Shown here one piece after another: positions 1 through 13,054 of a stretch of DNA of 33,248 nt. Origin of the DNA: Muribaculaceae bacterium (lineage in GTDB: Bacteria; Bacteroidota; Bacteroidia; Bacteroidales; Muribaculaceae); contig JAFUVK010000002.1 of the NCBI GenBank assembly GCA_017477555.1, positions 1 through 33,248 of the forward strand. Direction: 5' to 3'. Made by a program: the position numbers and the translations under genes. Each line of letters starts with the position of its first letter. Position 1 is the stretch's first letter. Under the pieces are notes generated by a model. That model did no database searches, was not told where the DNA came from, and saw only the letters and a list, made by a program, of their open reading frames with translations.

Positions 1-124
1 TGCCTCAAGTCGCATTGTGGGGTAAGGGGAAGGTGTGTGCACGGGACACAAATTCTCACCAATGTTTGCGGCGTGGCCAGCCAACGCGCCACTAGACAAG
101 CGCGGTGAGTGGTCTGGCTTATAG

Positions 125-436
125 GCTGCGGATTTTAGGTCTTTCTCGTTGAGCAAACTGAATATAATGGTTGGAAGCAATATCCGTTACATCTCCATTG
201 CCATCAGTCGATTTGCCAACTGTGACTTCAAGGCATTACTCAATCAATATCGCATTCAGGAGGCTTGCCGAAGAATGAATGATGTAGAGCATTATGGAAG
301 ATATACCATCGAGGCCATTGCCAAGAGTGTGGGCGTAACCTCAAGAACAAGTTTTATCCAAAACTTCAAAAAACAGACTGGACTCACCCCGTCGGCCTAC
401 TTAAAATTCGCACGTGAGAAGGCTGAGGCAAATTGA
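125..436 (+). pseudogene. 5'-truncated AraC-type HTH remnant
   Basis: About 100 residues that align almost end to end with the C-terminal DNA-binding domain of the complete regulator at 9322-11007: shared stretches include CDFKxLLxQYRIxEACRRMN, AIAKSVGxTSRTSFI and TPSAYLK. The similarity begins near 137 (the equivalent of FTFARLHELVGSN in the intact copy), and the frame is closed by a TAG at 122-124. The sequence upstream of that does not resemble the linker, membrane helix or TPR region of the intact gene. It is therefore a 3' fragment, not a full AraC protein (two HTH motifs need about 100 residues, which are present, but the sensor half is gone). A TTG at 149 could in principle start a free-standing HTH peptide of 95 residues. 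Whether it is expressed cannot be told. If the break lies outside the window (1-148 is only the edge), a rearranged gene remains possible. Confidence 0.75.
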
Positions 437-464
437 TAAAAACCCATTAAAAAAACGACTGTTT

Positions 465-499
465 CACCCCCCTAAAAGGGGGTGTTTTGTTTGTTTTTT
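465..499 (+). terminator. Rho-independent terminator after the HTH remnant
   Basis: CACCCCC (465-471) pairs with GGGGGTG (478-484) around a six-base loop and is followed by the T-rich run TTTTGTTTGTTTTTT. The T-rich tail overlaps the left half of the 25-bp dyad at 488-512, so terminator and putative operator share bases. Confidence 0.75.
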
Positions 500-512
500 C
501 GAAGAACGAACA
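488..512. promoter_or_regulatory. Putative operator dyad, copy A
   Basis: A 25-bp imperfect dyad running from TGTTTG to CGAACA. By eye it matches 21 of 25 positions of the dyad at 11014-11038. Its right half ACGAACA (506-512) is 18 nt upstream of the -33 TTG of the promoter at 531-561, exactly as at the second cassette. Operator function is inferred from recurrence and position. Confidence 0.5.
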
Positions 513-530
513 CTGCCCTAGCCACTTTTC

Positions 531-561
531 TTGCCATAGAGAGGTGGTTATTATAATTTTG
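531..561 (+). promoter_or_regulatory. Bacteroidetes-type promoter of the first LRR cassette
   Basis: TTG at 531-533, a 20-nt spacer, then TAATTTTG at 554-561. This matches the known Bacteroidetes primary-sigma consensus (TTG / TAnnTTTG). It implies a leader of roughly 85 nt before the ATG at 655. The leader contains GGCAGTGGATAAGGGTTCGAC (596 on), echoed in the leader of the second cassette. The promoter position is also the main reason for rejecting upstream start codons. Confidence 0.75.
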
Positions 562-654
562 CACTTGAATTTTCGGTACTCTAAAAAAAAAATCTGGCAG
601 TGGATAAGGGTTCGACATTGTCGAGGTTTCATACTGGACCCACACGAAATCATT

Positions 655-3198
655 ATGAAAAAATTATTTACCCTTTGCGTCCTGTTGGCTGGTGTCTTGA
701 CAGGGCAAGCAGCAGTAGAGATGGGGTTGACGCCGGTCATTCCGCCCGTCACCAATCCCGGACCGTCACGCAACATGAAGAAGGCCGCAAACTATGCAGC
801 AGAGGTCGTTGTCAACAATGTAAAGTATGGCATTGATACGGAAATGGGCATGGCTGTTGTGCTTGGTCTAGACGATGATGTACTTGATCTGAACATTGAA
901 GAATCGATCAATTATGAAGGTTCCACTTTTCCTGTCAAGGAGGTCGCCCGCATGGCATTTAATGCTAACGAAATCATTGAGACAGTCCACTTCCCTACCC
1001 ACCTGGCAAAGATAGGCAGTTGGTCGTTCCAAAACTGCGCCTCGCTGCAGTCGGTAGAGATTCCCGAAGGCTGCGAAGTCGACTCAATGGCTTTCGGACA
1101 GTGTATCTCACTGGCCAATGTAACCATTGGAGAAGGAGCAAAATTGAATTATGGCGCATTCTACAAGGACGTTGCCCTGACCAGTGTGACTATTCCGGCT
1201 ACAGTCACCGCACTGGGAAGATATTGCTTTAACGAGTGCACCAACCTCAAACATGTCACGATGCAGGGTGATTATATGTCATTTATCGGTTATGGATGCT
1301 TCATGAAGAGCGGAATTGAAGAGCTGAACTTGCCTGCTACCGTTGATCTGATTGAGGCATGCCTCGCCTATGACAGCCGCAGCCTGAAGTCCATCACGTT
1401 GCCCACCAACCTCGAGACCGTGCCCGCTCAGGCTTTCACCATGTGTACGTCGATAAGCAGTGTCTACCTGCCCGAAAACTACACCAAGTTGGGACAGGAA
1501 AGCTTCTATATGAACAGTAGTCTGACAAGCATCAACCTGGAGAATATCACTGAATTCCCCCGTATGTGCTTGGTGCAATGTGTCAACCTAGCGATAGATT
1601 TGGAGATGAACGACAATACCACATTCATCGGCGAGCAAGCGTTTGCTCGTGGTGCCATCAAGAGTGTCAAAACGGGTTCCAAGACCACGACCATTGACAA
1701 TTTCGCATTCCTTGAGGATGGAGGTCTCAAGAAGGTGACTCTGCTTGAGGGACTGCAAACCATCGGACGCATGGCATTTGCTGGCGTGGGAGCCGAAAAG
1801 ATTGTCATCCCATCTACTGTCACACGAGTTGACGGAGGTGCTTTCCGCAACTCCGGTGGTATCAACAGCGGCCTTAGGACCTTGGTGTGCTTAGCCACCA
1901 CGCCTCCTAGCATGCAAAATCCAGATGAATTGGTTGATGATTATTCGATTGTTACCCTCTATGTACCTGACGCAAGCATCGAGGCATACCAGGCAGCCGA
2001 ATATTGGAAGAAATTCACCAATGTGTTGCCGGTGAGCGAGTTGCCTAACGTCGAGGAAGTTACTATTGATGGTATCGTGTATGAACTTGACTTAAACACA
2101 GGCAAGGCAACTCTGATCAATGGCGCAGCAGCAACTGGTGACTTTGTGGTGCCCAACACCATCGCGCACGACCGCGCATCCTTCACGGTGGTAGGCATCG
2201 GCAAGGGCGCCTTCGATGAGAACACCAAACTGACTAGCATCACCCTCAACGAAGACTTGGAGACCATCGGCGATGACGCCTTCCAGTATTCAAGCATTCC
2301 TAGCCTGCACTTGCCCGCCAAGGTTCAGAGCGTGGGTCACGACTTCCACTACAAGGCTACCAGCCTGGCTGAAATCACCGTCGACGAGAACAACCCGTAC
2401 CTCTGCGCCGAGAACAGCCTGCTCATGAGCAAGGACAAGAAGATCGTTTGGGGCTTCCCCGTGGCTAACCCCGCTACCGAACTGATCTTGCCCGAGGAGG
2501 TTGAGATTGTGAAGAACGATGCTGTGAACCGTTGCAAGAACCTGCACAAGATTGTCATCAACGATGGTTGCAAGACCATCGAAGACTACGCCTTCGACAA
2601 CTGCACCGCTTGCACCGAGTTGATCATTGGTAAGGGCGTTGAGACCATTGGCTATCGTTCATTCCGTTCGCTCTCGTCGATGACTTCGCTCACCATGCCC
2701 GAAGAACTGATTGAGATTGGTGAATTAGCCTTCCACAACTGCGCAGCGTTGCCCGAGTTGAAGTTGCCTAACAAGTTGGAGCGAATCAATCACTGGGCAT
2801 TCAACAACTGCGTGTCATTGAAGACGGTAGAGTTGCCTGCAAGTCTGGTATACATGGGCGCAGGTTCGTTCAATGGCAACAACGCGATGGAAACCATGAT
2901 CAGTTATGCTGATGTCCCGTTTGAGATAGCCGAAATCTTCACTTATGAGCCGCAATACACCATCACTACGCTGAAGGTTCCTGCTGGCAGTGCCGAGCTC
3001 TATAGAAATGCTCCCTTCTGGATGAAGTTCACCAACATCGAGGAGATGCCTTGGACGGCGGTCGATGCTGTGAAGACCACTAATGAGGCACACGTGGTGG
3101 GCATCTACACGCTCGATGGCAAGCGCCTGAGCGAGATGCAGCCTGGTGTCAACATCGTTCGCATGAGCGACGGCACCGCACGCAAGGTTATCAAATAA
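655..3198 (+). CDS. Secreted BspA-like leucine-rich-repeat protein (copy 1)
   Basis: 847 aa from the ATG at 655, chosen because a signal peptide (MKKLFTLCVLLAGVLTG, cleavage near QAA) starts there and the promoter lies at 531-561; the open frame extends further up only through leader DNA. Two blocks of LRR_5 repeats (pattern: aromatic-xxC-x-L-x-x-hydrophobic-x-hydrophobic-P-x-x-hydrophobic) cover about residues 85-410 and 500-780. Each block closes with a TTPP / LYVP..SIEAY...YWKKFTN type cap. The last ~35 residues (VVGIYTLDGKRL ... GVNIVRMSDGTARKVIK) resemble a short type A T9SS C-terminal signal, suggesting export to the cell surface. BspA-family proteins are known as surface adhesins; the ligand here is unknown. 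It is the first gene of a two-gene cassette with the Omp28-like gene at 3269, and a paralogue lies at 5506. The second LRR block is far more conserved between the paralogues than the first. Confidence 0.88.
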   Translation: MKKLFTLCVLLAGVLTGQAAVEMGLTPVIPPVTNPGPSRNMKKAANYAAEVVVNNVKYGIDTEMGMAVVLGLDDDVLDLNIEESINYEGSTFPVKEVARMAFNANEIIETVHFPTHLAKIGSWSFQNCASLQSVEIPEGCEVDSMAFGQCISLANVTIGEGAKLNYGAFYKDVALTSVTIPATVTALGRYCFNECTNLKHVTMQGDYMSFIGYGCFMKSGIEELNLPATVDLIEACLAYDSRSLKSITLPTNLETVPAQAFTMCTSISSVYLPENYTKLGQESFYMNSSLTSINLENITEFPRMCLVQCVNLAIDLEMNDNTTFIGEQAFARGAIKSVKTGSKTTTIDNFAFLEDGGLKKVTLLEGLQTIGRMAFAGVGAEKIVIPSTVTRVDGGAFRNSGGINSGLRTLVCLATTPPSMQNPDELVDDYSIVTLYVPDASIEAYQAAEYWKKFTNVLPVSELPNVEEVTIDGIVYELDLNTGKATLINGAAATGDFVVPNTIAHDRASFTVVGIGKGAFDENTKLTSITLNEDLETIGDDAFQYSSIPSLHLPAKVQSVGHDFHYKATSLAEITVDENNPYLCAENSLLMSKDKKIVWGFPVANPATELILPEEVEIVKNDAVNRCKNLHKIVINDGCKTIEDYAFDNCTACTELIIGKGVETIGYRSFRSLSSMTSLTMPEELIEIGELAFHNCAALPELKLPNKLERINHWAFNNCVSLKTVELPASLVYMGAGSFNGNNAMETMISYADVPFEIAEIFTYEPQYTITTLKVPAGSAELYRNAPFWMKFTNIEEMPWTAVDAVKTTNEAHVVGIYTLDGKRLSEMQPGVNIVRMSDGTARKVIK

Positions 3199-3213
3199 TA
3201 CGTTCAATCAATC

Positions 3214-3247
3214 ATTGCGACATGGGGATGACCCATGTCGCAATTTT
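3214..3247 (+). terminator. Intercistronic 13-bp hairpin (attenuator/terminator-like), cassette 1
   Basis: ATTGCGACATGGG (3214-3226) pairs perfectly with CCCATGTCGCAAT (3232-3244) around GATGA and is followed by TTTTCTT. It lies between the LRR stop (3198) and the Omp28-like ATG (3269). A related hairpin with covarying bases occupies the same place in cassette 2 (8108-8140). Likely partial terminator or processing site that sets the ratio of the two products; this role is inferred. Confidence 0.75.
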
Positions 3248-3268
3248 CTTAAAAAGCGATTAATTCAT

Positions 3269-5221
3269 ATGAAGAAGAAATTACTGTCATTGATGTTTGC
3301 CCTGGGGTGCTTGTTATTTGCGAATGCCCAACAGATGCAACAGGCACCTGCGATGCCGAACATTGTAACGCGCGCCGCCAAGGCTCCAGCCCTCCATGCG
3401 CTGGGACCCAACCAGCTATATCTGGGCCATTACACGAGCGACAACTTACCCTCTCAAGGTGTGGGTTTGGCATCTCTGGAGGAAACCATTTGCTTGGGAA
3501 CGGTCTTGACGCTTGACCAACTCGAGATGTTTAACGGAAGTGAAGTGAAAGCCATCCGATTTGGCTTGTACCAGACGGTTACCGATGCCGCTGTATGCAT
3601 GTGGCCAGTGACCAGCCTATCGCCGCTCACTGTGGGAGACCCTGTGGTGTTTCAAGAAACTCCCTCAACAGTGACGGGATGGAATACCGTTGAGATTGAA
3701 AATCCCTATACCATTAACACTGATGGTATTGTAGGACTGATGCTGGGCTATCAATATCATCAAGTGGCCGGCGACGATAATAAGAGTTATCCTGTTATGG
3801 CCGTGCAAGAGGGAGACATCGCCAAGACCTATGCCTATGGCTTCTTAGGAACAACTTCCAAGAACTGGTTTGATGTGGGGTTGACCTCTTTTGGTAACCT
3901 GTGTGTACAGGCCATTGTTGAGGGCGAGAACCTTCCTGCCTATGATTTCCGGCTACTCGACATGTATGTGCCCGCCTATGCCAAGGTGGGCGATGGACTG
4001 AACTTTTCAGTCGCGCTGCAGAACTACGGTATCAAACCTCTCGATAATTATGCCTTCAATATGCTCATTGACGGAAATGTGGTCGGAATGATCAATTCAC
4101 CCCAGGCATTGACTCCCGAAGTGGTTTATTTGAATCTCAATTGTCCTCTCAATTGGCTGAACCTCTCGGTGGGGACGCACACATTTGGCCTGCAAGTCGC
4201 TAGCATCGATGGCGAGGATATTGATGATGGTAAATTACTCACGGGCGAGTTTACTGCATACTATGAGTCGTTCCCCCGCAAGAAGAACCTCATTGAGCAG
4301 TTTACCTCACAGACTTGTACCTATTGCCCCTGGGGAGAAGCCATCATCAAGCGACTGGACCAGATGCGTGATGATATTGCATGGGTGGCTGTTCACGGAA
4401 ACATGGGAACACCCGAGGACATCTTCCACACCACCAAGAGCGACCAGTTGATGACTTATCTGGGAATTGATGCTTATCCCACAGCCATTTTCAACCGATA
4501 TGACTATCCCAATAGCGGCGTGCTGGGAATGGGTATGGGCTATAATTCCAACTACACTCAGATGGTAGCGGACTATATCAATGACGGATACTTTGGACAA
4601 AATGCCACACCTGTCGCCGCCAGCATTGGAATCACAGGTACATTCGACCCCGAGACACGCGAACTCAGCGTCAAGGTAGCAGGCGAGGGCACTAGCGAGT
4701 TTAAGACACTGTTTGGCTCCATTGTGGGTGTCACAGTTTATCTCACCGAAGACGGGCTGGTTGCGCGTCAGCTCAACAATGGTACATGGGTTAATAACTA
4801 CACACACAACCATGTGATGCGCGATATGCTCAGCACAATCACCGGATCAGCCATCAAGTGGGATGACGATGCTAAGCACTATGCCAATGAGTTCGTCACC
4901 ACGCTGGATGAAAACTGGAATAGCGACAACATGCACATCATCGCCTTTGTCCACCGCAAGGGCAGCGGAGTGAAGAAGCAGGTCATCAACTGCGACATGG
5001 TCGCCATCAGCGACCTTCCAGCTCCTTCCGATGCCGTTGTTGGCGATGTTACGGGTGATGGAGTGGTCGACATCGCCGATGTCAATGCCATCATCAACAT
5101 GATGCTCGGCAAGGTCGAGGCAGTTCCTGCCGCCGACCTCAACACCGACGGAAATGTCGACATCTCTGATGTTAACGCCGTCATCAACCTCATGCTAGGC
5201 AAAGTAACAGATAATGGATAA
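3269..5221 (+). CDS. Secreted Omp28-like protein with CxxC thioredoxin site and dockerin (copy 1)
   Basis: 650 aa. Start ATG 3269 begins a clear signal peptide (MKKKLLSLMFALGCLLFANA). Residues ~35-340 form a beta-rich region I cannot assign with certainty. From ~343 an Omp28-related thioredoxin-like domain follows: the motif KKNLIEQFTSQTCTYCPWGE holds a redox-type pair C350-T-Y-C353, then an AYPTAIFNR strand as in thioredoxin folds. The C-terminus (about 592-648) carries two dockerin-type calcium loops, GDVTGDGVVDIADVNAI and DLNTDGNVDISDVNAV, each followed by a helix ending MLGK. Dockerins bind cohesins; no cohesin is visible in this window. It is the second gene of cassette 1, separated from the LRR gene by a hairpin. 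The shorter paralogue at 8152 lacks the N-terminal ~300-residue region. A disulfide or adhesin role at the cell surface is inference. Confidence 0.85.
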   Translation: MKKKLLSLMFALGCLLFANAQQMQQAPAMPNIVTRAAKAPALHALGPNQLYLGHYTSDNLPSQGVGLASLEETICLGTVLTLDQLEMFNGSEVKAIRFGLYQTVTDAAVCMWPVTSLSPLTVGDPVVFQETPSTVTGWNTVEIENPYTINTDGIVGLMLGYQYHQVAGDDNKSYPVMAVQEGDIAKTYAYGFLGTTSKNWFDVGLTSFGNLCVQAIVEGENLPAYDFRLLDMYVPAYAKVGDGLNFSVALQNYGIKPLDNYAFNMLIDGNVVGMINSPQALTPEVVYLNLNCPLNWLNLSVGTHTFGLQVASIDGEDIDDGKLLTGEFTAYYESFPRKKNLIEQFTSQTCTYCPWGEAIIKRLDQMRDDIAWVAVHGNMGTPEDIFHTTKSDQLMTYLGIDAYPTAIFNRYDYPNSGVLGMGMGYNSNYTQMVADYINDGYFGQNATPVAASIGITGTFDPETRELSVKVAGEGTSEFKTLFGSIVGVTVYLTEDGLVARQLNNGTWVNNYTHNHVMRDMLSTITGSAIKWDDDAKHYANEFVTTLDENWNSDNMHIIAFVHRKGSGVKKQVINCDMVAISDLPAPSDAVVGDVTGDGVVDIADVNAIINMMLGKVEAVPAADLNTDGNVDISDVNAVINLMLGKVTDNG

Positions 5222-5251
5222 AATGGGTAGTAATTGAGGTAATTTCTGACC

Positions 5252-5296
5252 AACACGGCTCGCCCTGCGCATCACGCACGACGGGCCGTGTTTTTA
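5252..5296 (+). terminator. Terminator after cassette 1
   Basis: AACACGGC (5252-5259) pairs with GCCGTGTT (5285-5292), with an additional small inner stem (TGCG/CGCA), followed by TTTTT. It closes the first LRR-Omp28 transcription unit before the second promoter at 5389. Confidence 0.8.
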
Positions 5297-5363
5297 ACTG
5301 GTTTGTTCGCCAACTTGGAACCAAAGTGCCTTTTCTTGGAAAGTTGTTTTTTTAAGAGGAAAC

Positions 5364-5370
5364 ACGAACA
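5364..5370. promoter_or_regulatory. ACGAACA half-site, copy B of putative operator
   Basis: ACGAACA again lies exactly 18 nt before the -33 TTG, as in front of the first cassette. The left half is degenerate here (GTTGTTTTTTT at about 5343-5353), so only the right half is confidently conserved. A distant TTTGTTCG near 5303 is its inverted complement and could be an alternative partner. Confidence 0.4.
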
Positions 5371-5388
5371 AACTCGAGCCCATTTTTC

Positions 5389-5419
5389 TTGACTTAAATA
5401 GGTGAAATCTCTAATTTTG
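5389..5419 (+). promoter_or_regulatory. Bacteroidetes-type promoter of the second LRR cassette
   Basis: TTTCTTG, a 20-nt spacer and TAATTTTGC (TTG 5389-5391, -7 element 5412-5419). Spacing and several flanking bases (including GGTG in the spacer) are the same as at 531-561. The leader contains GGCAGGGAATAAAGGGTTCGAC (from about 5447), matching the leader of copy 1. Confidence 0.78.
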
Positions 5420-5505
5420 CCACCAAGAAAAACTTTCTAAACCTTGGCAGGGAATAAAGGGTTCGACTCAACCAAGGTTAACACTAGAGCCCGTTACGGA
5501 TTCTT

Positions 5506-8088
5506 ATGAAAAAATTATTACGATCTGCATGCCTGTTCTTGATGGCCGCCCTGGCTTTGCAGGCATCTGCCTACAGAGTGACGCTGACTGAGTTGCCTGC
5601 ACCCAGCGATGTGGCTGTCAATGTGGCCAAGATGGCCCATCAGCCCAAAATGGTAGGAAAGGCAGTGAGCTATGACAATCAGATTGTTATTGACAACGTC
5701 ACCTACGGCATCGACATGACCAAAGGCATGGCCGTTGTCTTGGGACTCACCGACTTGACCATCAAGGATCTGGTGTTGGCCAACGAAGTTACCTATGAAG
5801 GTGTCGCCTACCCCGTCAAGGAGATTGCAAACAGCGCCTTCAGAGAGAATGGCACTATCGAGACTGTCCAACTGCCTAACCAACTAGAGACAGTAGGTGC
5901 GTACAGTTTCTTGATGTGCAGCAAACTCAAGAGCATTGCTCTGCCTGATGCTTGCCAGTTTGTCGACACTTGTGCATTTCAACAGTGCGTTTCGATGACC
6001 AGCATTGACTTGAATCAAGTCAAGAAATTGAGTGTCCAAACATTTTGGGGCGACTCCGCACTGACGAGTTTCACATTCCCTGAGACGCTAGACTCGATTC
6101 CTAGCCATCAACTCACCAATTGCGTCAGCTTGACCAATGTTGAGTTCAAGAACAACCATCTCAGGACACTTGCCGGCAACATCTTTATGAACTGCACCTC
6201 GCTCACCAAGGTCAAGTTCCCCGAGACCATCGATGACATGGGAACAGCTATCTGTTGGACATGTAGCATGTTGTCTAATGTAGAACTGCCCACCAACGTG
6301 ACCATGCTCCCAGCTCAGACCTTTGTGAGTTGCTCGAGCCTGAAAAATGTTACTCTTCCCGACAGTTACACTGCTATCGACGGTTCGGCATTCTTTGGAG
6401 CCGGATTGGAGTATATCAATATTGAGAACATTGTGGAATTTGGTGGCATGTGCTTTATCAACTGCCCGTTGACAGGCATGCCCAACATTGTGCTGAACGA
6501 AAACTGCACGGTTATCCCCACGAGCGTGTTCCGCAAGACGGGCATTAAGAGTTTCACTGCCAGCCCGAACTTGGTGACGCTGGGTTCGGAAGTCTTCTAT
6601 GAGTGTGCTGACTTGAGTAGAGTCACGCTCAACGAGGGACTGGAAGAGATTGGACATTTGGAATTTGTGCGTTGCCCCAACATCACCTATGTGACCATCC
6701 CATCGACCGTAACGGTAGTCAATGGCTATGCCTTCTGGGGAACTGGGTTGCAGACACTCGTCTGCAAGGCCACCACACCTCCTGAGAATCTGACTGAAGC
6801 TGATTATGTGATGGACTACAGTGTACCAACACTCTATGTTCCCGAGGAGAGCATCGAGGCATACAGGTCAGCACCCTATTGGCAGAAGTTCACTAATATC
6901 AAGCCGCTGAGCGAGGCTCCCGTAGAGCCACGTATCGAGGAAATCACCATCGATGGAATCGTGTATAGAATTGATTTAAATAATGGAACCGCCATCCTTA
7001 TCAATGGCGCAGCAGCAACTGGCGACTTTGTGGTGCCCAACACCATTGCCCGTGACCGTGCTGAAGTATTCACTGTGATTGGCATTGGGGATGGTGCATT
7101 CGACGAGAACACCAATCTGACGAGTATCACCCTGAACGAGGATCTCGAGACCATCGGCGACGACGCCTTCCAGTACTCGAGCATTCCTGCCTTGCACTTG
7201 CCTGCCAAGGTACAGAGTGTGGGTCACGACTTCCACTACAAGGCTACTAAGCTTGCCGAGATTACTGTCGACGAGAACAACCCGTATCTGTGCGCCGAGA
7301 ACTCGCTGCTCATGAGCAAGGACAAGAAGGTCGTTTGGGGCTACCCCGTGGCTAACCCTGCTACCGAACTGATTCTGCCCGAGGAGGTTGAGATTGTTAA
7401 GAGCGACGCTGTGAACCGCAGCAAGAACCTGTTGACCATTGTGATCAACGACAACTGCAAGACCATCGAGAAGGAAGCCTTCGACAACTGCACCAGCTGC
7501 ACGAGCCTGACTATGGGCAAGGGTGTTGAGTTTATCGGTTATCAGGCATTCCGTTCGTTCAAGAGCATCACCGAGCTGACATTGCCCGAAAATCTCAAGG
7601 AGCTTGATGCATGGGCTTTTAGTTGGTGCCAAAGTTTGAAAGAGATTACTTTCAACGACAAACTGGAGAAGATTGGCAATGGCTCGTTCTATCACAACGA
7701 TGCTCTCGAGGTGGTTGACCTGCCTGCCACTGTGACTTATATCAATGCCTATGCCTTCAATACCTGTGATGCCATTACCGAGTTCCGTTGCCGCGCCACG
7801 GTTCCTCCCGAGGTTATCACCGACTTGTGGGAACCCCAGGGTAACTACATGTCGATTCCGTTGCTGGTTCCCGCTGGCAGTGAAGAGGCCTATGCCAATG
7901 CTCCGGTTTGGCAGAAGTTCACTAACATCGAGGCCCTGCCAACCACCGCTATCGATGCTATTGAGGCTACAGACAATGCCACTGTTGTTGGCATCTACAC
8001 CTTGGATGGCCGCAAGGCTAGCGAGTTGCAGCCTGGCATCAACATCGTTCGCATGAGCGACGGCACTAGCCGCAAGGTTATCAAGTAA
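5506..8088 (+). CDS. Secreted BspA-like leucine-rich-repeat protein (copy 2)
   Basis: 860 aa; ATG 5506 starts the signal peptide MKKLLRSACLFLMAALALQASA. Same architecture as copy 1: a short N-terminal region (DNVTYGIDMTKGMAVVLGL matches copy 1), a first LRR_5 block to about residue 420 ending in a TTPP / LYVPEESIEAY cap, a spacer (VEPRIEEITIDGIVYRIDL), a second LRR block, a VPAGSEEAY...WQKFTNI cap, and the tail VVGIYTLDGRKASELQPG...MSDGTSRKVIK, a probable T9SS type A-like signal. From INGAAATGDFVVPN to EEVEIVKSDAVNR the sequence is nearly identical to copy 1, whereas the first block is only moderately similar. The surface adhesin or ligand-binding role is inferred from the BspA family. Followed after a conserved hairpin by the Omp28-like gene at 8152. 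Confidence 0.88.
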   Translation: MKKLLRSACLFLMAALALQASAYRVTLTELPAPSDVAVNVAKMAHQPKMVGKAVSYDNQIVIDNVTYGIDMTKGMAVVLGLTDLTIKDLVLANEVTYEGVAYPVKEIANSAFRENGTIETVQLPNQLETVGAYSFLMCSKLKSIALPDACQFVDTCAFQQCVSMTSIDLNQVKKLSVQTFWGDSALTSFTFPETLDSIPSHQLTNCVSLTNVEFKNNHLRTLAGNIFMNCTSLTKVKFPETIDDMGTAICWTCSMLSNVELPTNVTMLPAQTFVSCSSLKNVTLPDSYTAIDGSAFFGAGLEYINIENIVEFGGMCFINCPLTGMPNIVLNENCTVIPTSVFRKTGIKSFTASPNLVTLGSEVFYECADLSRVTLNEGLEEIGHLEFVRCPNITYVTIPSTVTVVNGYAFWGTGLQTLVCKATTPPENLTEADYVMDYSVPTLYVPEESIEAYRSAPYWQKFTNIKPLSEAPVEPRIEEITIDGIVYRIDLNNGTAILINGAAATGDFVVPNTIARDRAEVFTVIGIGDGAFDENTNLTSITLNEDLETIGDDAFQYSSIPALHLPAKVQSVGHDFHYKATKLAEITVDENNPYLCAENSLLMSKDKKVVWGYPVANPATELILPEEVEIVKSDAVNRSKNLLTIVINDNCKTIEKEAFDNCTSCTSLTMGKGVEFIGYQAFRSFKSITELTLPENLKELDAWAFSWCQSLKEITFNDKLEKIGNGSFYHNDALEVVDLPATVTYINAYAFNTCDAITEFRCRATVPPEVITDLWEPQGNYMSIPLLVPAGSEEAYANAPVWQKFTNIEALPTTAIDAIEATDNATVVGIYTLDGRKASELQPGINIVRMSDGTSRKVIK

Positions 8089-8107
8089 GTATCTCATTTT
8101 CTAAATC

Positions 8108-8140
8108 ATTGCGACAAGGGGAGATGCCCCTTGTCGCAAT
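8108..8140 (+). terminator. Intercistronic 14-bp hairpin, cassette 2
   Basis: ATTGCGACAAGGGG (8108-8121) pairs perfectly with CCCCTTGTCGCAAT (8127-8140) around AGATG. Compared with the hairpin at 3214-3244, a T-A pair has become A-T on both arms, so the stem is conserved by covariation. There is no T run after it (GTTTAATAG follows), and it ends only 11 nt before the ATG at 8152, so here it may act on translation or mRNA stability rather than termination. Confidence 0.65.
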
Positions 8141-8151
8141 GTTTAATAGAC

Positions 8152-9180
8152 ATGAAAAAGTTTTTTCTATTTTCGGTTCTGCTCTTCATAGGAGTTATAA
8201 CAACTCAGGCCTATCCTAAACTGGTGGCTGTCAACAATGATGCCGCGACCGAGTTCCCCCGACAGAAGCACTTGGTGGAACTGTTTACCTCGCAGGGCTG
8301 CCTATATTGCCCGTTGGGTGAGGAAGTGCTGGAATTGGTGTATCAGAAACCTGAACTGTCAGAGAAGATAGCTTGGGCATCTTTGCACATCAATATCACA
8401 GTGAGTGATGTCTTCTGCACATCCAAGACAAGTACCATTTGCACTGACCTTGGGGCAACCTCATTCCCCTCAGCCACATTCAACCGCAAGGACTATACAG
8501 GCGATGGCAAGTTGCCCATCGTGGTAAGTGCAGTGAATGAGAATATTCCAATCGTGGCGCAAGAATTGTCTCAGATGTTGATGGATGACACTACACCGTG
8601 CCTTGCCAATATCAAGTTGGATGCTACCTATGACGAGACAACACGAATGCTCAATGTTGATGTGTCGGGCCAGACGGCTAGCAACTTCATAGCCACATAT
8701 GGCAACAATGTTGGTTTGACAGTCTATCTGACTGAGGACAGTCTGGTAGCCAGACAATTGTCCCCTGATGGCACATGGGTGCCTGACTATGTGCATAACC
8801 ATGTGGTGCGTGATGTGCTCAGCAGCATTAAGGGCGACATGGTCACCATCACCAACGGCATCTATCAGAAGTCTTTCACCAAGACTCTGAAAGAGGCCTG
8901 GAATGTGAACAACATGCAGGTCATCGCCTTCTTGCACCGCAAGGGCTCAACTCCCATTACACGCGAGGTTATCAACTGCGAAATGATCGACTTGCGGGAT
9001 TTGTTGGCTGTAAAGGGTGACATCAATGGTGATGGCAAAGTAGACATCGCCGATATCAATGCCGTCATCAACATGATGCTGGGCAAGGCCGATGCCGTGC
9101 CTGCTGCCGACCTCAACACCGACGGAAACGTCGACATCTCTGACGTTAATGCCGTTATCAACCTCATGCTCGGCAAGTAA
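8152..9180 (+). CDS. Short secreted Omp28-like protein with CxxC site and dockerin (copy 2)
   Basis: 342 aa from ATG 8152 (signal peptide MKKFFLFSVLLFIGVITTQA). The mature protein enters the Omp28-like thioredoxin domain almost at once: KHLVELFTSQGCLYCPLGEE with C50-L-Y-C53, then TSFPSATFNRKDY. The middle region (VGLTVYLTEDSLVARQLS, YVHNHVVRDVLSSI, NNMQVIAFLHRKGS) matches copy 1 closely. The C-terminus from 289 has two dockerin loops, GDINGDGKVDIADINAV and DLNTDGNVDISDVNAV; the second is identical to copy 1 at protein level. Compared with copy 1 it lacks the ~300-residue N-terminal beta-rich region, so this is either loss in copy 2 or gain in copy 1. The hairpin 8108-8140 lies just upstream. 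Probable surface or periplasmic protein; substrate unknown. Confidence 0.85.
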   Translation: MKKFFLFSVLLFIGVITTQAYPKLVAVNNDAATEFPRQKHLVELFTSQGCLYCPLGEEVLELVYQKPELSEKIAWASLHINITVSDVFCTSKTSTICTDLGATSFPSATFNRKDYTGDGKLPIVVSAVNENIPIVAQELSQMLMDDTTPCLANIKLDATYDETTRMLNVDVSGQTASNFIATYGNNVGLTVYLTEDSLVARQLSPDGTWVPDYVHNHVVRDVLSSIKGDMVTITNGIYQKSFTKTLKEAWNVNNMQVIAFLHRKGSTPITREVINCEMIDLRDLLAVKGDINGDGKVDIADINAVINMMLGKADAVPAADLNTDGNVDISDVNAVINLMLGK

Positions 9181-9220
9181 GCCTCCCACTCACAAAAAAG
9201 GTGAATTGGTTTTTAATTGC

Positions 9221-9260
9221 AACGGCTCATTTTGTGATATATATCACAAAATGAGCCGTT
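9221..9260. repeat. 40-bp perfect palindrome
   Basis: A gap-free inverted repeat: AACGGCTCATTTTGTG, then the centre ATATATAT, then CACAAAATGAGCCGTT. It sits between the Omp28-like stop (9180) and the regulator promoter (9266-9294). No T run follows on the plus strand, while TTTTTAATTGC precedes it. It could be a terminator for the cassette, a cruciform or an operator for the regulator gene. Confidence 0.85.
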
Positions 9261-9265
9261 ATGCT

Positions 9266-9294
9266 TTGTGTATGCGAAAAAATCACTACCTTTG
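9266..9294 (+). promoter_or_regulatory. Candidate promoter of the TPR-HTH regulator
   Basis: TTG (9266-9268), an 18-nt spacer (one shorter than usual) and TACCTTTG (9287-9294). It begins 6 nt after the 40-bp palindrome. It favours a start codon downstream of 9300. Confidence 0.5.
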
Positions 9295-9321
9295 CCAATC
9301 AAAAACCCAAACCTTAAGATT

Positions 9322-11007
9322 GTGTCGAAACAATTCTATATATTGCTGCTGATGCTCATCGCATGGGGATGCGCACAGGCCAAGGTAGTTTATCCAGAAT
9401 ACTGGAAGAGCCTGAACAATGAACAGATGATGGAAAAAGGCGGTCAATTTGCCAAAGCCGAGCAAATGGACAGCGCCTTGGCGTGTTATTCGCTGCTTGC
9501 GAGCCAGTTAAGCCGTGAACATGACCAGGCGAGCGAGGCCATGCGCGCCAAAGCCATCTTTGCTATGGCAAAAATTTATTCGTATCATTACTACAATTAT
9601 CAGAAAGGGGCTGATTGCCTGATGATGGCTCGTCAGCCAGCCGAGGCCGCCAACGACTCGGTGTTGCTGTCTGGAATTTATAGCAACCTGGGACATCTCT
9701 ATCTGCAGCAAGAGCACGAGTCAGCAGGCAAAACAAATGAATTGTCCACGACTAAAAAGTGTTATAAAAAGGCCTATAGTTATGCGGCTGATAATTCTCC
9801 TTCTCAACGCTCAATCATCACCAACTTGGTTGCTATTGGCTTCTGGACGAATTTTGCTGCTAATTTCAATGCCGAGATGCAGGATTATTGCGATAAACAC
9901 AAGCAGCCTGATGATCTTACACAGTTCTGCCGTGCCTCGTGGAGCATGCAGCGGCGCGACTATGACGGGGCACTGAAATATCTGGATGAGGCAGTTGAGT
10001 TGTCCGATAATGAGCGGGTCAGGGGAGTGGTGCTGATGATCAAGTGCAAACTGCTCGACGAGATGGGGCGTGATGCCGAGTCCATGGCGGTGTTGGATGA
10101 GTATGAGAAACTGGTGCGTGGCAATGGTTTGCTCGAAGGCATCCCCGACATCTATGACCAGAAGTATTTGTTCTATTCCAAGCGAGGCAATCAGGCGCTG
10201 GCCAAGGACAATCGACTCAAGTACTTTGAGTCGGTCGACAGCCTGAATCGCATCACCCAGTTGACCTATCTCGAGAAGATTCCCTTTATTTACGACTTGC
10301 AGAAGGCCACTGAAGAAATTCATGTCCAGGAAATCCAGCATCATCGGTTGATGCAGATACTATGGATCGTCATTGTCGCAGCCATCATCTTTATGGTGTT
10401 GGCATTGATGATTTACCGGCGCAACAAGGAAATCCAGGAAAATTATCGCATCCTCTATGAGCAAAACTTGCAACACCTGGCGATTATCGAGGAGGAACGC
10501 AAGAAAATGCCTGTTGTCGACCAGCCTCTGCCTGCATCGGACGAAGAACCCGAACTTACCGAGGATGAGCAGATTGATGCTGAGAAAGCCGCATCTTCGG
10601 GCGATACCGCCAATGATGATAGCAACAATCCTGTGCTCAACGAAGTGTATCAGCGCATCTGCGCCGTCATGGAAAAGTCGCCCGAAGTGTATAGCGAGAA
10701 TTTTACCTTCGCTCGGTTGCATGAGCTGGTGGGCAGTAACACCAAGTACCTGTCACGCGCCATCAGCACCCATGCACAGTGTGACTTCAAGACGCTCTTG
10801 AGCCAGTACCGCATTCGTGAGGCGTGCCGACGCATGAATGATGTGGAGCACTACCGAAACTTTACCATCGACGCCATCGCCAAGAGTGTGGGCATTACCT
10901 CGCGTACCAGTTTCATCAAGAATTTCAAGAGCCAGACGGGCATTACGCCGTCGGCTTATCTCAAGTTAGCCAGGCAGAAAACAAGCGAAAGCCGTTCGGC
11001 CAAGTGA
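9322..11007 (+). CDS. Membrane-bound TPR sensor / AraC-type HTH transcriptional regulator
   Basis: 561 aa from a GTG at 9322 (signal-anchor MSKQFYILLLMLIAWGCAQA); an upstream in-frame GTG at 9268 would overlap the promoter, and ATG 9352 is an alternative. Residues ~30-335 are helical with TPR-like pairs (for example QMDSALACYSLLASQL, YDGALKYLDEAVELSD) and are expected in the periplasm. One membrane helix follows at ~343-366 (ILWIVIVAAIIFMVLALMIY, then RRNK), then a coiled coil, an acidic linker (about 400-440) and an AraC/HTH_18 domain from ~459 to the end, with AIAKSVGITSRTSF as recognition region. This layout is common in Bacteroidetes one-component regulators that bind DNA from the membrane. 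Its HTH is nearly the same as the remnant at 125-436. Linked to two surface-protein cassettes, it is their likely regulator (inference). Confidence 0.85.
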   Translation: MSKQFYILLLMLIAWGCAQAKVVYPEYWKSLNNEQMMEKGGQFAKAEQMDSALACYSLLASQLSREHDQASEAMRAKAIFAMAKIYSYHYYNYQKGADCLMMARQPAEAANDSVLLSGIYSNLGHLYLQQEHESAGKTNELSTTKKCYKKAYSYAADNSPSQRSIITNLVAIGFWTNFAANFNAEMQDYCDKHKQPDDLTQFCRASWSMQRRDYDGALKYLDEAVELSDNERVRGVVLMIKCKLLDEMGRDAESMAVLDEYEKLVRGNGLLEGIPDIYDQKYLFYSKRGNQALAKDNRLKYFESVDSLNRITQLTYLEKIPFIYDLQKATEEIHVQEIQHHRLMQILWIVIVAAIIFMVLALMIYRRNKEIQENYRILYEQNLQHLAIIEEERKKMPVVDQPLPASDEEPELTEDEQIDAEKAASSGDTANDDSNNPVLNEVYQRICAVMEKSPEVYSENFTFARLHELVGSNTKYLSRAISTHAQCDFKTLLSQYRIREACRRMNDVEHYRNFTIDAIAKSVGITSRTSFIKNFKSQTGITPSAYLKLARQKTSESRSAK

Positions 11008-11013
11008 CCAAGA

Positions 11014-11038
11014 TGTTCGTTTTTTGGGAAAACGAACA
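11014..11038. promoter_or_regulatory. Putative operator dyad, copy C (perfect 10-bp arms)
   Basis: TGTTCGTTTT (11014-11023) and AAAACGAACA (11029-11038) are perfect inverted repeats around TTGGG. Only 6 nt separate it from the regulator stop. It matches copy A at 21 of 25 positions. No T run follows on either strand, which argues against a simple terminator. Confidence 0.55.
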
Positions 11039-11176
11039 CACTACCCGTCCATCATCGGGTGGGAGTGCTTTAACTTTTGCACCTTTGCATGGTCAAATGG
11101 ATGTGCTCGTCCCTTCTCAACTTTCGTGACCTTGCTGCGGGGTCATCGAAAAAAGAGGGAAAGCCGAAAAAAGATT

Positions 11177-11206
11177 TTGACGATTCAGATTTTTGTTCTA
11201 CTTTTG
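11177..11206 (+). promoter_or_regulatory. Promoter of ftcD
   Basis: TTG (11177-11179), a 19-nt spacer, TACTTTTG (11199-11206): a full match to the Bacteroidetes consensus. The implied leader is about 135 nt, long enough to hold regulation, but I see no recognisable riboswitch. Confidence 0.75.
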
Positions 11207-11347
11207 TAAGCTATAACGTGAGAGATGTTCTCAAGAGTAAGATAAGATAACATAAGAAAATAAAGAGTGGCAATGATATAGATTTTCCCAATAAGGGTCA
11301 ACTTCTATATTGTTGCCAAAACTAAATCATAAACTTAAAACAAAACA

Positions 11348-13054
11348 ATGAGCAACAAACGCCAAATCGTGGAATGCGTGCCCAACTTCAGCGAGGGCCG
11401 CAACATGGACATCATCAACCAAATCACCGACGTGATACGCCGCGCCAGCGGTGTGAAGCTGCTGGACGTGGACCCGGGCGAGGCCACCAACCGCACTGTG
11501 GTCACCTTTGTGGGCGACCCCGACTCGGTGGTCGAGACCGCCTTCCAGGCCGTGAAAAAGGCCGGGCAGCTGATTGACATGCGTCAGCACCATGGCGCGC
11601 ACCCGCGCATGGGTGCCACCGATGTGTGTCCGCTCATCCCCGTGGCCGGCATCACCCTGGAGGAGTGTGCGGCACTGGCCCGCAAGCTGGCCGAGCGCAT
11701 CGCCACAGAGGCCGGAATACCGTGCTACTGCTATGAGGCAGCAGCCTTCACCCCCGAGCGCCGCAACCTGGCGGTATGCCGCGAGGGCGAGTACGAGGCT
11801 CTGGCCGAGAAGCTCTCCACCCCCGGCAAGCAGCCCGACTTCGGGGCGCGCCCGCTCGACGAGCAGGCCGCACGCACCGGCTGCACCGCAGTGGGAGCAC
11901 GCGACTTCCTGATTGCCACCAACTTTAACCTCAACACCACATCGACCCGCCGCGCCAACGCCATAGCCTTCGACGTGCGCGAGAAGGGACGTCCGGTGCG
12001 CGAGGGCAACCCCATCACCGGCACGCCCAAGAAGGACGAGAACGGACGCACCATCATGCAGCCCGGCACACTCAAGGGCACCAAGGCCATCGGATGGTAT
12101 ATCGACGAGTATAAGATTGCACAGGTGTCGATGAACATCACCGACATCAACCAGACTCCGCTGCACGTGGCCTTCGACGAGGTGTGCCGCTGCGCGCAGA
12201 ACCGTGGTGTGCGCGTCACAGGCACCGAGATTGTGGGCTTGATTCCCAAACGCACACTCATCGACGCCGGCAAGTACTTCCTGGAGAAGCAGCACCGCTC
12301 GACGGGCATCCCCGAGACCGACATCATCGACATCGCCATCCACTCGATGGGTCTGGACGACCTGAAGCCTTTCGACCCGCAGGAGAAGGTGATTGAGTTT
12401 ATGCTCGACGCCGATGACAATGCCGGCAAGAAGCTGGTGGACCTCACGGTCAAGGGATTTGCCGAGGAGACCTCGCGCGAGTCGCCCGCACCCGGCGGCG
12501 GCACCATCGCCGCCACAATGGGCGCACTGGGAGCGGCCCTGGGAGGCATGGTTGCCAACCTGAGCAGCCACAAGCCGGGCTGGGACGACCGCTGGCACGA
12601 GTTCAGCCTCTGGGCCGACAAGGGCCAAGCGCTGATGACCGAGCTGCTGCACCTGGTGGACGAGGACACCGAGGCGTTCAACCGCATCATGGCCGCGTTT
12701 GGCATGCCCAAGAAGACCGACGAGGACAAGGCTGCACGCAGCGCCGCCATCCAGGCCGCCACACTCTACGCCGCACAGGTGCCCCTGCGCACGATGAAGG
12801 AGTCGTTCCAGGTGTTTGAGCTGTGCCGCGCCATGGCCGAGCAGGGCAACCCCAACAGCGTGAGTGACGCCGGTGTGGGTGCTCTGGCCGCCCGTGCCGC
12901 CGTGCTGGGTGCCGGCATGAATGTCAAGATCAACGCCGGCTCGCTCAAAGACCGTGCTGTGGCCGACGCACTCATCGCCGAGGCCAACGACCTCATTGCC
13001 CGCGCCAACGCCGAGGAGGCCGAGATCACCAAGATTGTCGAGTCGAAGCTCTAA
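11348..13054 (+). CDS. ftcD: Bifunctional glutamate formiminotransferase / formimino-THF cyclodeaminase
   Basis: 568 aa. It transfers the formimino group of N-formimino-glutamate (from histidine breakdown) to tetrahydrofolate and then deaminates and cyclises it to 5,10-methenyl-THF, in the cytoplasm. The N-terminal transferase half (about 1-325) starts IVECVPNFSEGRN and has the HHGAHPRMGATD motif, whose second histidine is residue 82, the position of the catalytic His82 known from mammalian FTCD. The cyclodeaminase half (from ~363) shows ESPAPGGGTIAA and FELCRAMAEQGNPNSVSD. Full length and fused as in animals and many Bacteroidetes. It stands alone here: no hutH, hutU or hutI flank it. Own promoter at 11177-11206, terminator at 13101. 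Confidence 0.95.
   Translation: MSNKRQIVECVPNFSEGRNMDIINQITDVIRRASGVKLLDVDPGEATNRTVVTFVGDPDSVVETAFQAVKKAGQLIDMRQHHGAHPRMGATDVCPLIPVAGITLEECAALARKLAERIATEAGIPCYCYEAAAFTPERRNLAVCREGEYEALAEKLSTPGKQPDFGARPLDEQAARTGCTAVGARDFLIATNFNLNTTSTRRANAIAFDVREKGRPVREGNPITGTPKKDENGRTIMQPGTLKGTKAIGWYIDEYKIAQVSMNITDINQTPLHVAFDEVCRCAQNRGVRVTGTEIVGLIPKRTLIDAGKYFLEKQHRSTGIPETDIIDIAIHSMGLDDLKPFDPQEKVIEFMLDADDNAGKKLVDLTVKGFAEETSRESPAPGGGTIAATMGALGAALGGMVANLSSHKPGWDDRWHEFSLWADKGQALMTELLHLVDEDTEAFNRIMAAFGMPKKTDEDKAARSAAIQAATLYAAQVPLRTMKESFQVFELCRAMAEQGNPNSVSDAGVGALAARAAVLGAGMNVKINAGSLKDRAVADALIAEANDLIARANAEEAEITKIVESKL

Follow-up and report, generated by a model that had tools for sequence, protein, structure and literature searches.

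A candidate cassette of LRR and Omp28-dockerin proteins with a linked membrane-bound regulator in Muribaculaceae

BspA of Tannerella forsythia is a surface protein of the BspA-type leucine-rich repeat (LRR) kind (LRR_5), and the hybrid two-component systems of Bacteroides combine a periplasmic sensor with an HTH_18 output domain. We analyzed a stretch of 33,248 nucleotides (nt) from a Muribaculaceae bacterium (GenBank assembly GCA_017477555.1, contig JAFUVK010000002.1; hereafter the window), which is the entire contig C3 of draft genome G000 (3.15 Mb, 199 contigs, ∼90% complete; its named relatives carry the labels Bacteroidales or Porphyromonadaceae). It contains two consecutive pairs of an LRR gene and an Omp28-dockerin gene (cassettes A and B), followed by a gene for a predicted membrane-bound regulator (Table 1). 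Like BspA-type proteins, LRR_A and LRR_B combine LRR_5 repeats with an N-terminal signal-like segment. They differ from BspA by the linked Omp28-dockerin gene, the dedicated regulator, a palindrome and a leader, and by two repeat arrays that flank a conserved core, followed by a short conserved tail. The regulator shares HTH_18 with the hybrid two-component systems, but neither a histidine kinase nor a receiver domain was found among its Pfam hits.

In its layout, the regulator resembles CadC, which unites a periplasmic sensor, one transmembrane helix, and a cytosolic DNA-binding domain in a single chain (PMC9214523). It differs by the AraC-type helix-turn-helix (HTH) at its C-terminal end, a TPR-like sensor at its N-terminal end, and its origin from Bacteroidales. 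The best relative of solved structure for Omp28_B is HBP35 of Porphyromonas gingivalis (PDB 5y1a; E = 3e-9, CxxC aligned). HBP35 is also the best match of the predicted Omp28_B fold (Foldseek E = 9e-11, TM score 0.50), in a model of moderate confidence (mean predicted local distance difference test score 63.8) that is low around the CxxC motif. Both the thioredoxin CxxC and the following beta domain are found in Omp28_B. HBP35 is reported to have thioredoxin and hemin-binding activity and to occur in a modified cell-surface form, other forms being cytoplasmic; the available text mentions no LRR partner (PMC2907840), whereas Omp28_B is encoded beside LRR_B. Furthermore, HBP35 ends in a conserved C-terminal domain, but Omp28_B in a dockerin. 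The Paraprevotella clara protein 00502, which we liken to the cassette Omp28s by annotation, is an Omp28-related surface protein that depends on the type IX secretion system (T9SS) and recruits trypsin. It is helped by a second surface protein from the same locus, 00509, described in the available text as a hypothetical protein and not an LRR protein (PMC9477747). A literature search of partial coverage returned no description of the LRR-Omp28-regulator set, its operator, leader, or mosaic. The individual parts are of known kinds, and their combination with operator, leader, and mosaic is without a published description in the literature covered.

We consider it moderately probable that a membrane-bound activator drives this cassette of exchangeable surface recognition proteins. 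This reading draws on the gene order, the distribution and spacing of a palindrome, the conservation of leaders and hairpins, and a mosaic divergence; activation, binding, surface location, ligand, and RNA function are its predicted parts. An initial reading of the DNA letters alone (the sequence-only reading) had proposed two consecutive copies of one unit followed by the regulator. All five genes are present in this order, as judged from open reading frames and Pfam (cut-offs: LRR_5, PF13306, 27.7 bits; Omp28, PF11551, 34.9; Dockerin_1, 22.9; HTH_18, 33.6). The same gene order does occur twice, but the units are paralogous and not near-identical: a recent tandem duplication was rejected, since LRR_A and LRR_B are only 52.6% identical and the Omp28 types differ. 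Omp28_A and Omp28_B both carry an Omp28 domain, a CxxC-P motif (present in 10 of 10 aligned proteins), and a C-terminal dockerin type I domain, and signal-like segments are found at the N-termini of both LRR and Omp28 products. The regulator combines an N-terminal signal and a single strong hydrophobic segment (amino acids [aa] 346-364, by hydropathy) with the C-terminal HTH_18. The sequence-only reading had not picked up the remnant of a second regulator gene at the start of the contig, the palindrome in its full extent, the resemblance of the leader to a pseudoknot, or the mosaic pattern of variation.

The pair of genes is conserved together with its regulator. We found nine direct LRR-to-Omp28 adjacencies (window A, window B, contig C161 of G000, loci L043, L044, L045, L046, and L069, and G008:C191), and the LRR/Omp28-dockerin pair stands beside regulators of the same clade in five related draft genomes of one genus (G000, G008, G028, G034, and G387/UBA4262). 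The sequence-only reading would have been contradicted by a lack of this adjacency in relatives; since it recurs, the reading stands on that point. In a tree calculated without C135 and C2 (short or weak matches) and without the window remnant, the nine cassette regulators formed one clade (support 100/100), separate from 12 of the remaining regulator-like proteins in G000. At E ≤ 1e-110, the regulator was found in 4 of 397 family genomes (G000, G028, G034, and G387), a sample to which G008 does not belong. Among 61 relatives, close regulators (>680 bits) occupy eight places in four genomes (G000, G008, G028, and G034), and all eight share a contig with a cassette-type LRR gene. A superfamily-wide linkage to LRR or dockerin genes was rejected as weak: only 5 of 16 regulator-like loci in G000 lie within ∼1.6 kb of LRR_5 or dockerin matches. 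Further regulators of the superfamily stand beside dockerin or LRR_5 genes at G000:C183:17157-19054, C38:5090-9014, and C28:592-5335. A scan of a contig collection with regulator peptide patterns matched 80 stretches and gave four loci, in UBA2720 (two), RUG12632, and UBA4262; it is not exhaustive, because it used two short patterns and missed G008-type regulators. Carriage on a phage or plasmid was rejected: no relative of the regulator was detected in viral contigs by a peptide-pattern scan, nor an exact palindrome (an annotated phage collection was not searched), and no regulator relative in plasmids at E ≤ 1e-10.

Omp28 matches as such are more widespread (38 of 61 relatives). In 34 other fetched Omp28 neighborhoods (L047-L066 and L072-L085), a phmmer search with the cassette LRRs labeled no gene immediately ahead of a labeled Omp28 gene as LRR. 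Many of them contain a full or partial group of TlpA, DUF6029, Omp28 lipoprotein, small dockerin protein, and long Omp28; the rest have single or tandem Omp28 genes. This group also occurs at the second G000 locus, C161, which reads GHL10, short Omp28, regulator (48% identical to the window regulator), palindrome, LRR, long Omp28, TlpA-like and continues with DUF6029, Omp28 lipoprotein, small dockerin protein, and long Omp28. The lipoprotein of the C161 group belongs to the Omp28 outer-membrane lipoprotein subfamily NF033782 (307 bits), whose cut-off of 150 bits Omp28_A (97.8) and Omp28_B (86.7) do not reach. Possibly, the cassette arose in the neighborhood of this TlpA-DUF6029-Omp28 lipoprotein group. 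A conserved group of TlpA-like, DUF6029, Omp28 lipoprotein, small dockerin, and Omp28-dockerin genes was also seen at L037:2821-8354 and at L048, L051, L052, and L083. In the Omp28 tree, Omp28_A falls within a supported group of six and Omp28_B forms a long branch of uncertain place; 4 of the 31 collected proteins lacked the trimming motif and were left out (two with CxxC in another context, two without).

The putative operator is the palindrome TGTTCGTTTT-N5-AAAACGAACA. Shuffling the window 100 times yielded a mean of 0.00 such sites with up to three mismatches allowed. With up to two mismatches, G000 holds three copies, the two of the window and C161:22171-22195, which all immediately follow the 3' end of a regulator gene or its remnant; with up to three, it holds five, against one for the reversed control. 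Perfect palindromes number five in the 397 family genomes, all at cassette loci of the four regulator-bearing genomes, and another lies between regulator and LRR gene at G008:C263, a contig that terminates within the LRR gene. Sites with two mismatches are near background: they occur in five further genomes of the 397 that have no regulator match, and the reversed pattern occurs in seven. Such sites alone are therefore uninformative; one, at G028:C56, lies inside an open frame.

The distance from the palindrome to the promoter is invariant. Past CGAACA in the right arm, a TTG follows after exactly 18 nt and TANNTTTG (TAnnTTTG) after exactly 41 nt in all eight readable LRR promoters; we take this motif to be a Bacteroidales promoter. 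The eight promoters represent four lineages (window A; window B and L044; C161 with L045, L046, and L069; G008). Since the 18-nt spacers are merely 22-50% identical across lineages (C161 short-Omp28 promoter included), the distance is kept and not the sequence. Similar sites also occur at the short-Omp28 promoters of C161, G034, and G387, here with a distance of 42 nt to TANNTTTG. The pattern ACGAACA-N40..42-TANNTTTG occurs twice in the window (0.01 expected) and at 11 distinct sites in 115 loci, namely at eight LRR and three short-Omp28 promoters and none elsewhere. The predicted link between regulator and operator is thus supported by the co-occurrence of perfect palindromes with the regulator and by the invariant promoter spacing.

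Alternatively, the palindrome could be part of the transcription end of the regulator gene; the regulator would then control other things, and the LRR and Omp28 genes would be mere neighbors. We judge this quite unlikely. The palindrome does lie ∼6-51 nt past the regulator stop codon, the left arm of the first copy in the window shares bases with the T-rich stretch behind a terminator-like hairpin, and L043 and L044 retain the left arm alone after the regulator. But ahead of promoters it is the right arm that is better kept, at a fixed distance, and a half-site persists before LRR_B, where no regulator gene lies directly upstream. Similar sites also precede short-Omp28 genes, and the palindrome folds only weakly (-10.4 kcal/mol) with no T-run after it.

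Module B (right half-site, LRR, short Omp28, regulator, left half-site) can be read as the common order regulator-palindrome-LRR in circularly permuted form, with half-sites at its ends (5364-5370 and 11014-11028 in the window; L043:5938; L044:11693). This permutation would fit a recombination site of 10-5-10 symmetry used for whole-module exchange, with the promoter spacing simply inherited, and so would the end of the L043/L044 match to the window at the palindrome center and the 93% identity of window positions 139-542 (regulator end and site) to G008, compared with ∼73% for the core genes of both genomes. However, a tandem array could yield the same permutation, and the fixed promoter spacing is left unexplained. 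We noticed no recombinase gene in these loci, though none was searched for, and regard this explanation as highly improbable.

Both cassettes share further elements in their RNA. The LRR leaders have GGGTTC (GGGTCC in G008) and its complement downstream in common, and a second helix interleaves with the first in the order a-b-a'-b', resembling an H-type pseudoknot. The interleaved helix was more stable than in dinucleotide shuffles in 9 of 9 leaders (z -2.2 to -5.2, p 0 to 0.024, 500 shuffles), in a test for which the first stem was picked by eye and which included the leader before the short Omp28 gene of G028. When eight LRR leaders were aligned, pairing was seen in 92.5% of cells, against at most 57% in slid controls, and 5 of 15 pairs showed double changes; in the leaders of window B and L044, several pairs of helix 1 are unformed in the alignment register, and a shifted helix is found instead. 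A covariance model built from the two window leaders and six others matched eight sequences in 27 genomes (at most 150 candidates scored per genome), all of them LRR leaders, from five genomes. A strong hairpin separates the LRR and Omp28 genes at all nine adjacencies. Its sequence is TTGCG(A/G)CA...TGTCGCA in eight, and in G008 it is a different terminator-like hairpin with a T-run. No Rfam 15 family reached its gathering score in window positions 1-11400, L036, L045, L046, or L069, and a known Rfam RNA was thus rejected for leader and hairpin. The promoter design, half-site, leader, and intercistronic hairpin that the sequence-only reading had described as shared are all present in both cassettes.

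The coding parts of cassette B vary in a mosaic manner. DNA identity in aligned background stretches (∼10-11 kb per pair) is 86.5% for G000 with G034, 85.6% for G000 with G028, and 87.6% for G034 with G028, and cassette B of G034 is ∼98% identical to that of G028 across ∼5.9 kb. Compared with G034, promoter and leader of window cassette B are 96% identical and the LRR_B signal peptide is identical in protein. The divergence break sits at the signal-peptide end: the array of LRR_B (aa 23-460) is only 40% identical in protein, and identity returns to 96% in the core (aa 520-670). Omp28_B is 52% identical to its counterpart. The regulator is 72% identical at aa 111-255, 98% at aa 341-450, and 100% from aa 451 to the end (99-100% in DNA for aa 301-561). 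The secreted LRR array, the body of Omp28, and a predicted periplasmic stretch of the regulator thus diverge, and the cytosolic half of the regulator is almost unchanged. The LRR_B array shares 37% of its protein sequence with its positional counterpart and 38-40% with other cassette LRRs, and no donor was found among the fetched loci. A similar pattern was seen for the C161-type regulator of G008 and G000, with 35-43% identity in the N-terminal 255 aa and 85% in the HTH; its neighbors are 89% (DUF6029), 88% (TlpA), and 82% (GHL10) identical. In L043 and L044, Omp28 and the regulator are separated by a gene for an M6 metalloprotease with fn3 and dockerin (L044:7819-9864), which the window lacks. 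The end of Omp28_B (window 9008-9180) matches the dockerin end of this M6 gene, as if two dockerin-coding repeats had recombined.

These data could also be explained by an ordinary paralogous adhesin family with a local regulator, the divergence of the LRR_B array and Omp28_B reflecting relaxed constraint or mis-assembly rather than exchange or selection. Such proteins are indeed numerous in G000 (34 open frames with LRR_5, 94 dockerin places), contig positions 1-138 have no match among the fetched loci, and the C161-type LRR array is well conserved in four genomes. The divergence, however, begins at the signal-peptide end and halts at the conserved core, within a contig that otherwise resembles G034 in its promoter and in the cytosolic half of the regulator. 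The reading frames are open, and CxxC is kept in Omp28_B. We therefore consider this explanation unlikely. A different extension of the activator reading would be a self-contained, horizontally exchanged module, in which LRR array, Omp28, and periplasmic segment of the regulator diversify together, the sensor reads its own products or their ligand, and the palindrome possibly serves as a swap seam; this we regard as doubtful.

Several observations weigh against an activator driving exchangeable surface proteins. The system is held by five draft genomes only; its proposed unity is supported by the recurrence of adjacency, regulator clade, and palindrome, and is limited by this restriction to few genomes of one genus and by the 34 neighborhoods that lack the pair. 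Besides the solitary left arms of L043 and L044, cassette B is without the left operator arm, and in G028 the site ahead of the short Omp28 gene is a variant one, for which TACCTTTG stands at 42 nt and another TANNTTTG at 17 nt. Since the palindrome adjoins the regulator gene, their co-occurrence could conceivably reflect hitch-hiking. Of the proposed TPR-TM-HTH architecture, the single transmembrane segment and the HTH stand, but the sensor region stays below the cut-offs of TPR_2 (16.6 bits against 27) and DUF6377 (18.9 against 36.7). The leader model retrieved only its own eight training sequences, and a similar leader before the short Omp28 gene of G028, recognized by eye, is not among its matches. 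The mosaic variation is not general, because the C161-type LRR array of G000 is 89-97% identical to those of G028, G034, and G387, and the neighboring Omp28 lipoprotein and small dockerin protein also diverge, down to 59-60% in some genomes. Two of the 31 collected Omp28 proteins, neither of them LRR-linked (L067:5864-7807 and L072:2-1840), are without CxxC; redox chemistry is therefore not universal in the Omp28 family. Finally, the two LRR tails gave no NCBIfam match at E ≤ 1 and no relevant Pfam match at E ≤ 0.1, and no T9SS C-terminal signal was recognized in them with these collections.

Table 1. Positions of genes and predicted elements in the window
Feature	Position	Strand	Basis or remark
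Regulator remnant, 3' part, HTH_18, 5' side truncated	139-436	+	HTH_18 45.3 bits
Terminator-like hairpin after regulator remnant, then T-rich stretch	465-484	+	Fold 455-500, z -2.6
Palindromic putative operator, cassette A, 2 mismatches	488-512	+	Pattern search
Putative promoter, cassette A: TTG 18 nt, TAATTTTG 41 nt past CGAACA	531-561	+	Bacteroidales promoter motif, spacing
LRR_A leader, predicted H-type pseudoknot	589-660	+	Covariance model match
LRR_A, BspA-type, 847 aa	655-3198	+	LRR_5 404.1 bits
Intercistronic hairpin TTGCGACA..TGTCGCAA, LRR_A/Omp28_A	3214-3244	+	-23.3 kcal/mol, z -6.7
Omp28-dockerin_A, long form, CxxC, 650 aa	3269-5221	+	Omp28 80.8, Dockerin_1 32.2 bits
Terminator-like hairpin after cassette A	5252-5292	+	Fold z -4.5
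Right half-site of putative operator, cassette B	5364-5370	+	Left arm unrecognizable
Putative promoter, cassette B, equal 18/41 spacing	5389-5419	+	Spacing
LRR_B leader, predicted pseudoknot	5440-5511	+	Covariance model match
LRR_B, BspA-type, 860 aa	5506-8088	+	LRR_5 336 bits
Intercistronic hairpin, LRR_B/Omp28_B	8107-8141	+	-27.9 kcal/mol, z -8.4
Omp28-dockerin_B, short form, CxxC, HBP35-like, 342 aa	8152-9180	+	Omp28 93.7, Dockerin_1 35.2 bits
Inverted repeat, perfect, terminator-like, between Omp28_B and regulator	9221-9260	+	Arms kept in L043, L044
TACCTTTG, likely -7 element of the promoter for the regulator gene itself	9287-9294	+	Promoter motif, presumed
Regulator, membrane one-component type, 561 aa, GTG start	9322-11007	+	HTH_18 44.3 bits
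Perfect palindromic putative operator, directly 3' of regulator	11014-11038	+	Pattern search
Promoter remnant, standard spacing; GGG replaces TTG, CACCTTTG at 41; no LRR gene after	11057-11087	+	

At the start of the contig, window positions 139-518 are 94% identical in DNA to the 3' end of the intact regulator gene at G008:C191. The contig start before this remnant represents either a natural deletion or truncation of the regulator gene or a contig-end artifact. In G000 as a whole, we counted 91 LRR_5, 94 dockerin type I, 7 Omp28, and 20 regulator-like places; LRR_5 and dockerin are thus common and Omp28 is uncommon. Cohesin (PF00963) had no match in this ∼90% complete genome. The dockerins must therefore have another role or partner, and a cellulosomal role was rejected. 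A study of a rumen Bacteroidetes genome is reported to have identified neither cohesins nor dockerins there (PMC5831590). SprA_N, the sole T9SS component sought, was found in G000 with 629 bits, and the T9SS machinery is therefore likely present.

In the mechanism we propose for the activator and its cassette, the regulator would reside in the inner membrane, with the TPR-like domain in the periplasm and the AraC-type HTH in the cytosol. The cue would be periplasmic, either a ligand from outside or products of the cassette itself in transit. Upon this cue, the regulator would bind TGTTCGTTTT-N5-AAAACGAACA, placed 18 nt before the -33 box, and activate transcription of the LRR-Omp28 pair; a similar site also lies ahead of a separate short Omp28 gene in relatives. 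The transcript would open with the pseudoknot-like leader, which probably sets LRR translation, and the intercistronic hairpin probably shifts the balance of products toward LRR over Omp28. It is likely that both are exposed on the surface. There, the LRR protein would bind something, and Omp28, as a thioredoxin/HBP35-like partner, would bind or modify a target. The ectodomains of module B may have been exchanged or have diverged fast within a regulatory frame that stayed almost constant, and the modules may in part have moved between species.

G000 alone illustrates the wealth of such surface proteins (91 LRR_5 and 94 dockerin places). For one set of them, there is now a predicted regulator, a predicted operator at constant distance, a predicted leader RNA, and a series of natural variants with constant and variable parts, so that regulation and ligand become directly testable. 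Hemin binding (HBP35) and trypsin recruitment (00502) are reported for relatives of Omp28, and the target may therefore be a protein from the host or from food. Should the sensor vary with the products, this would be a bacterial case in which sensor and recognition variants at the cell surface are matched.

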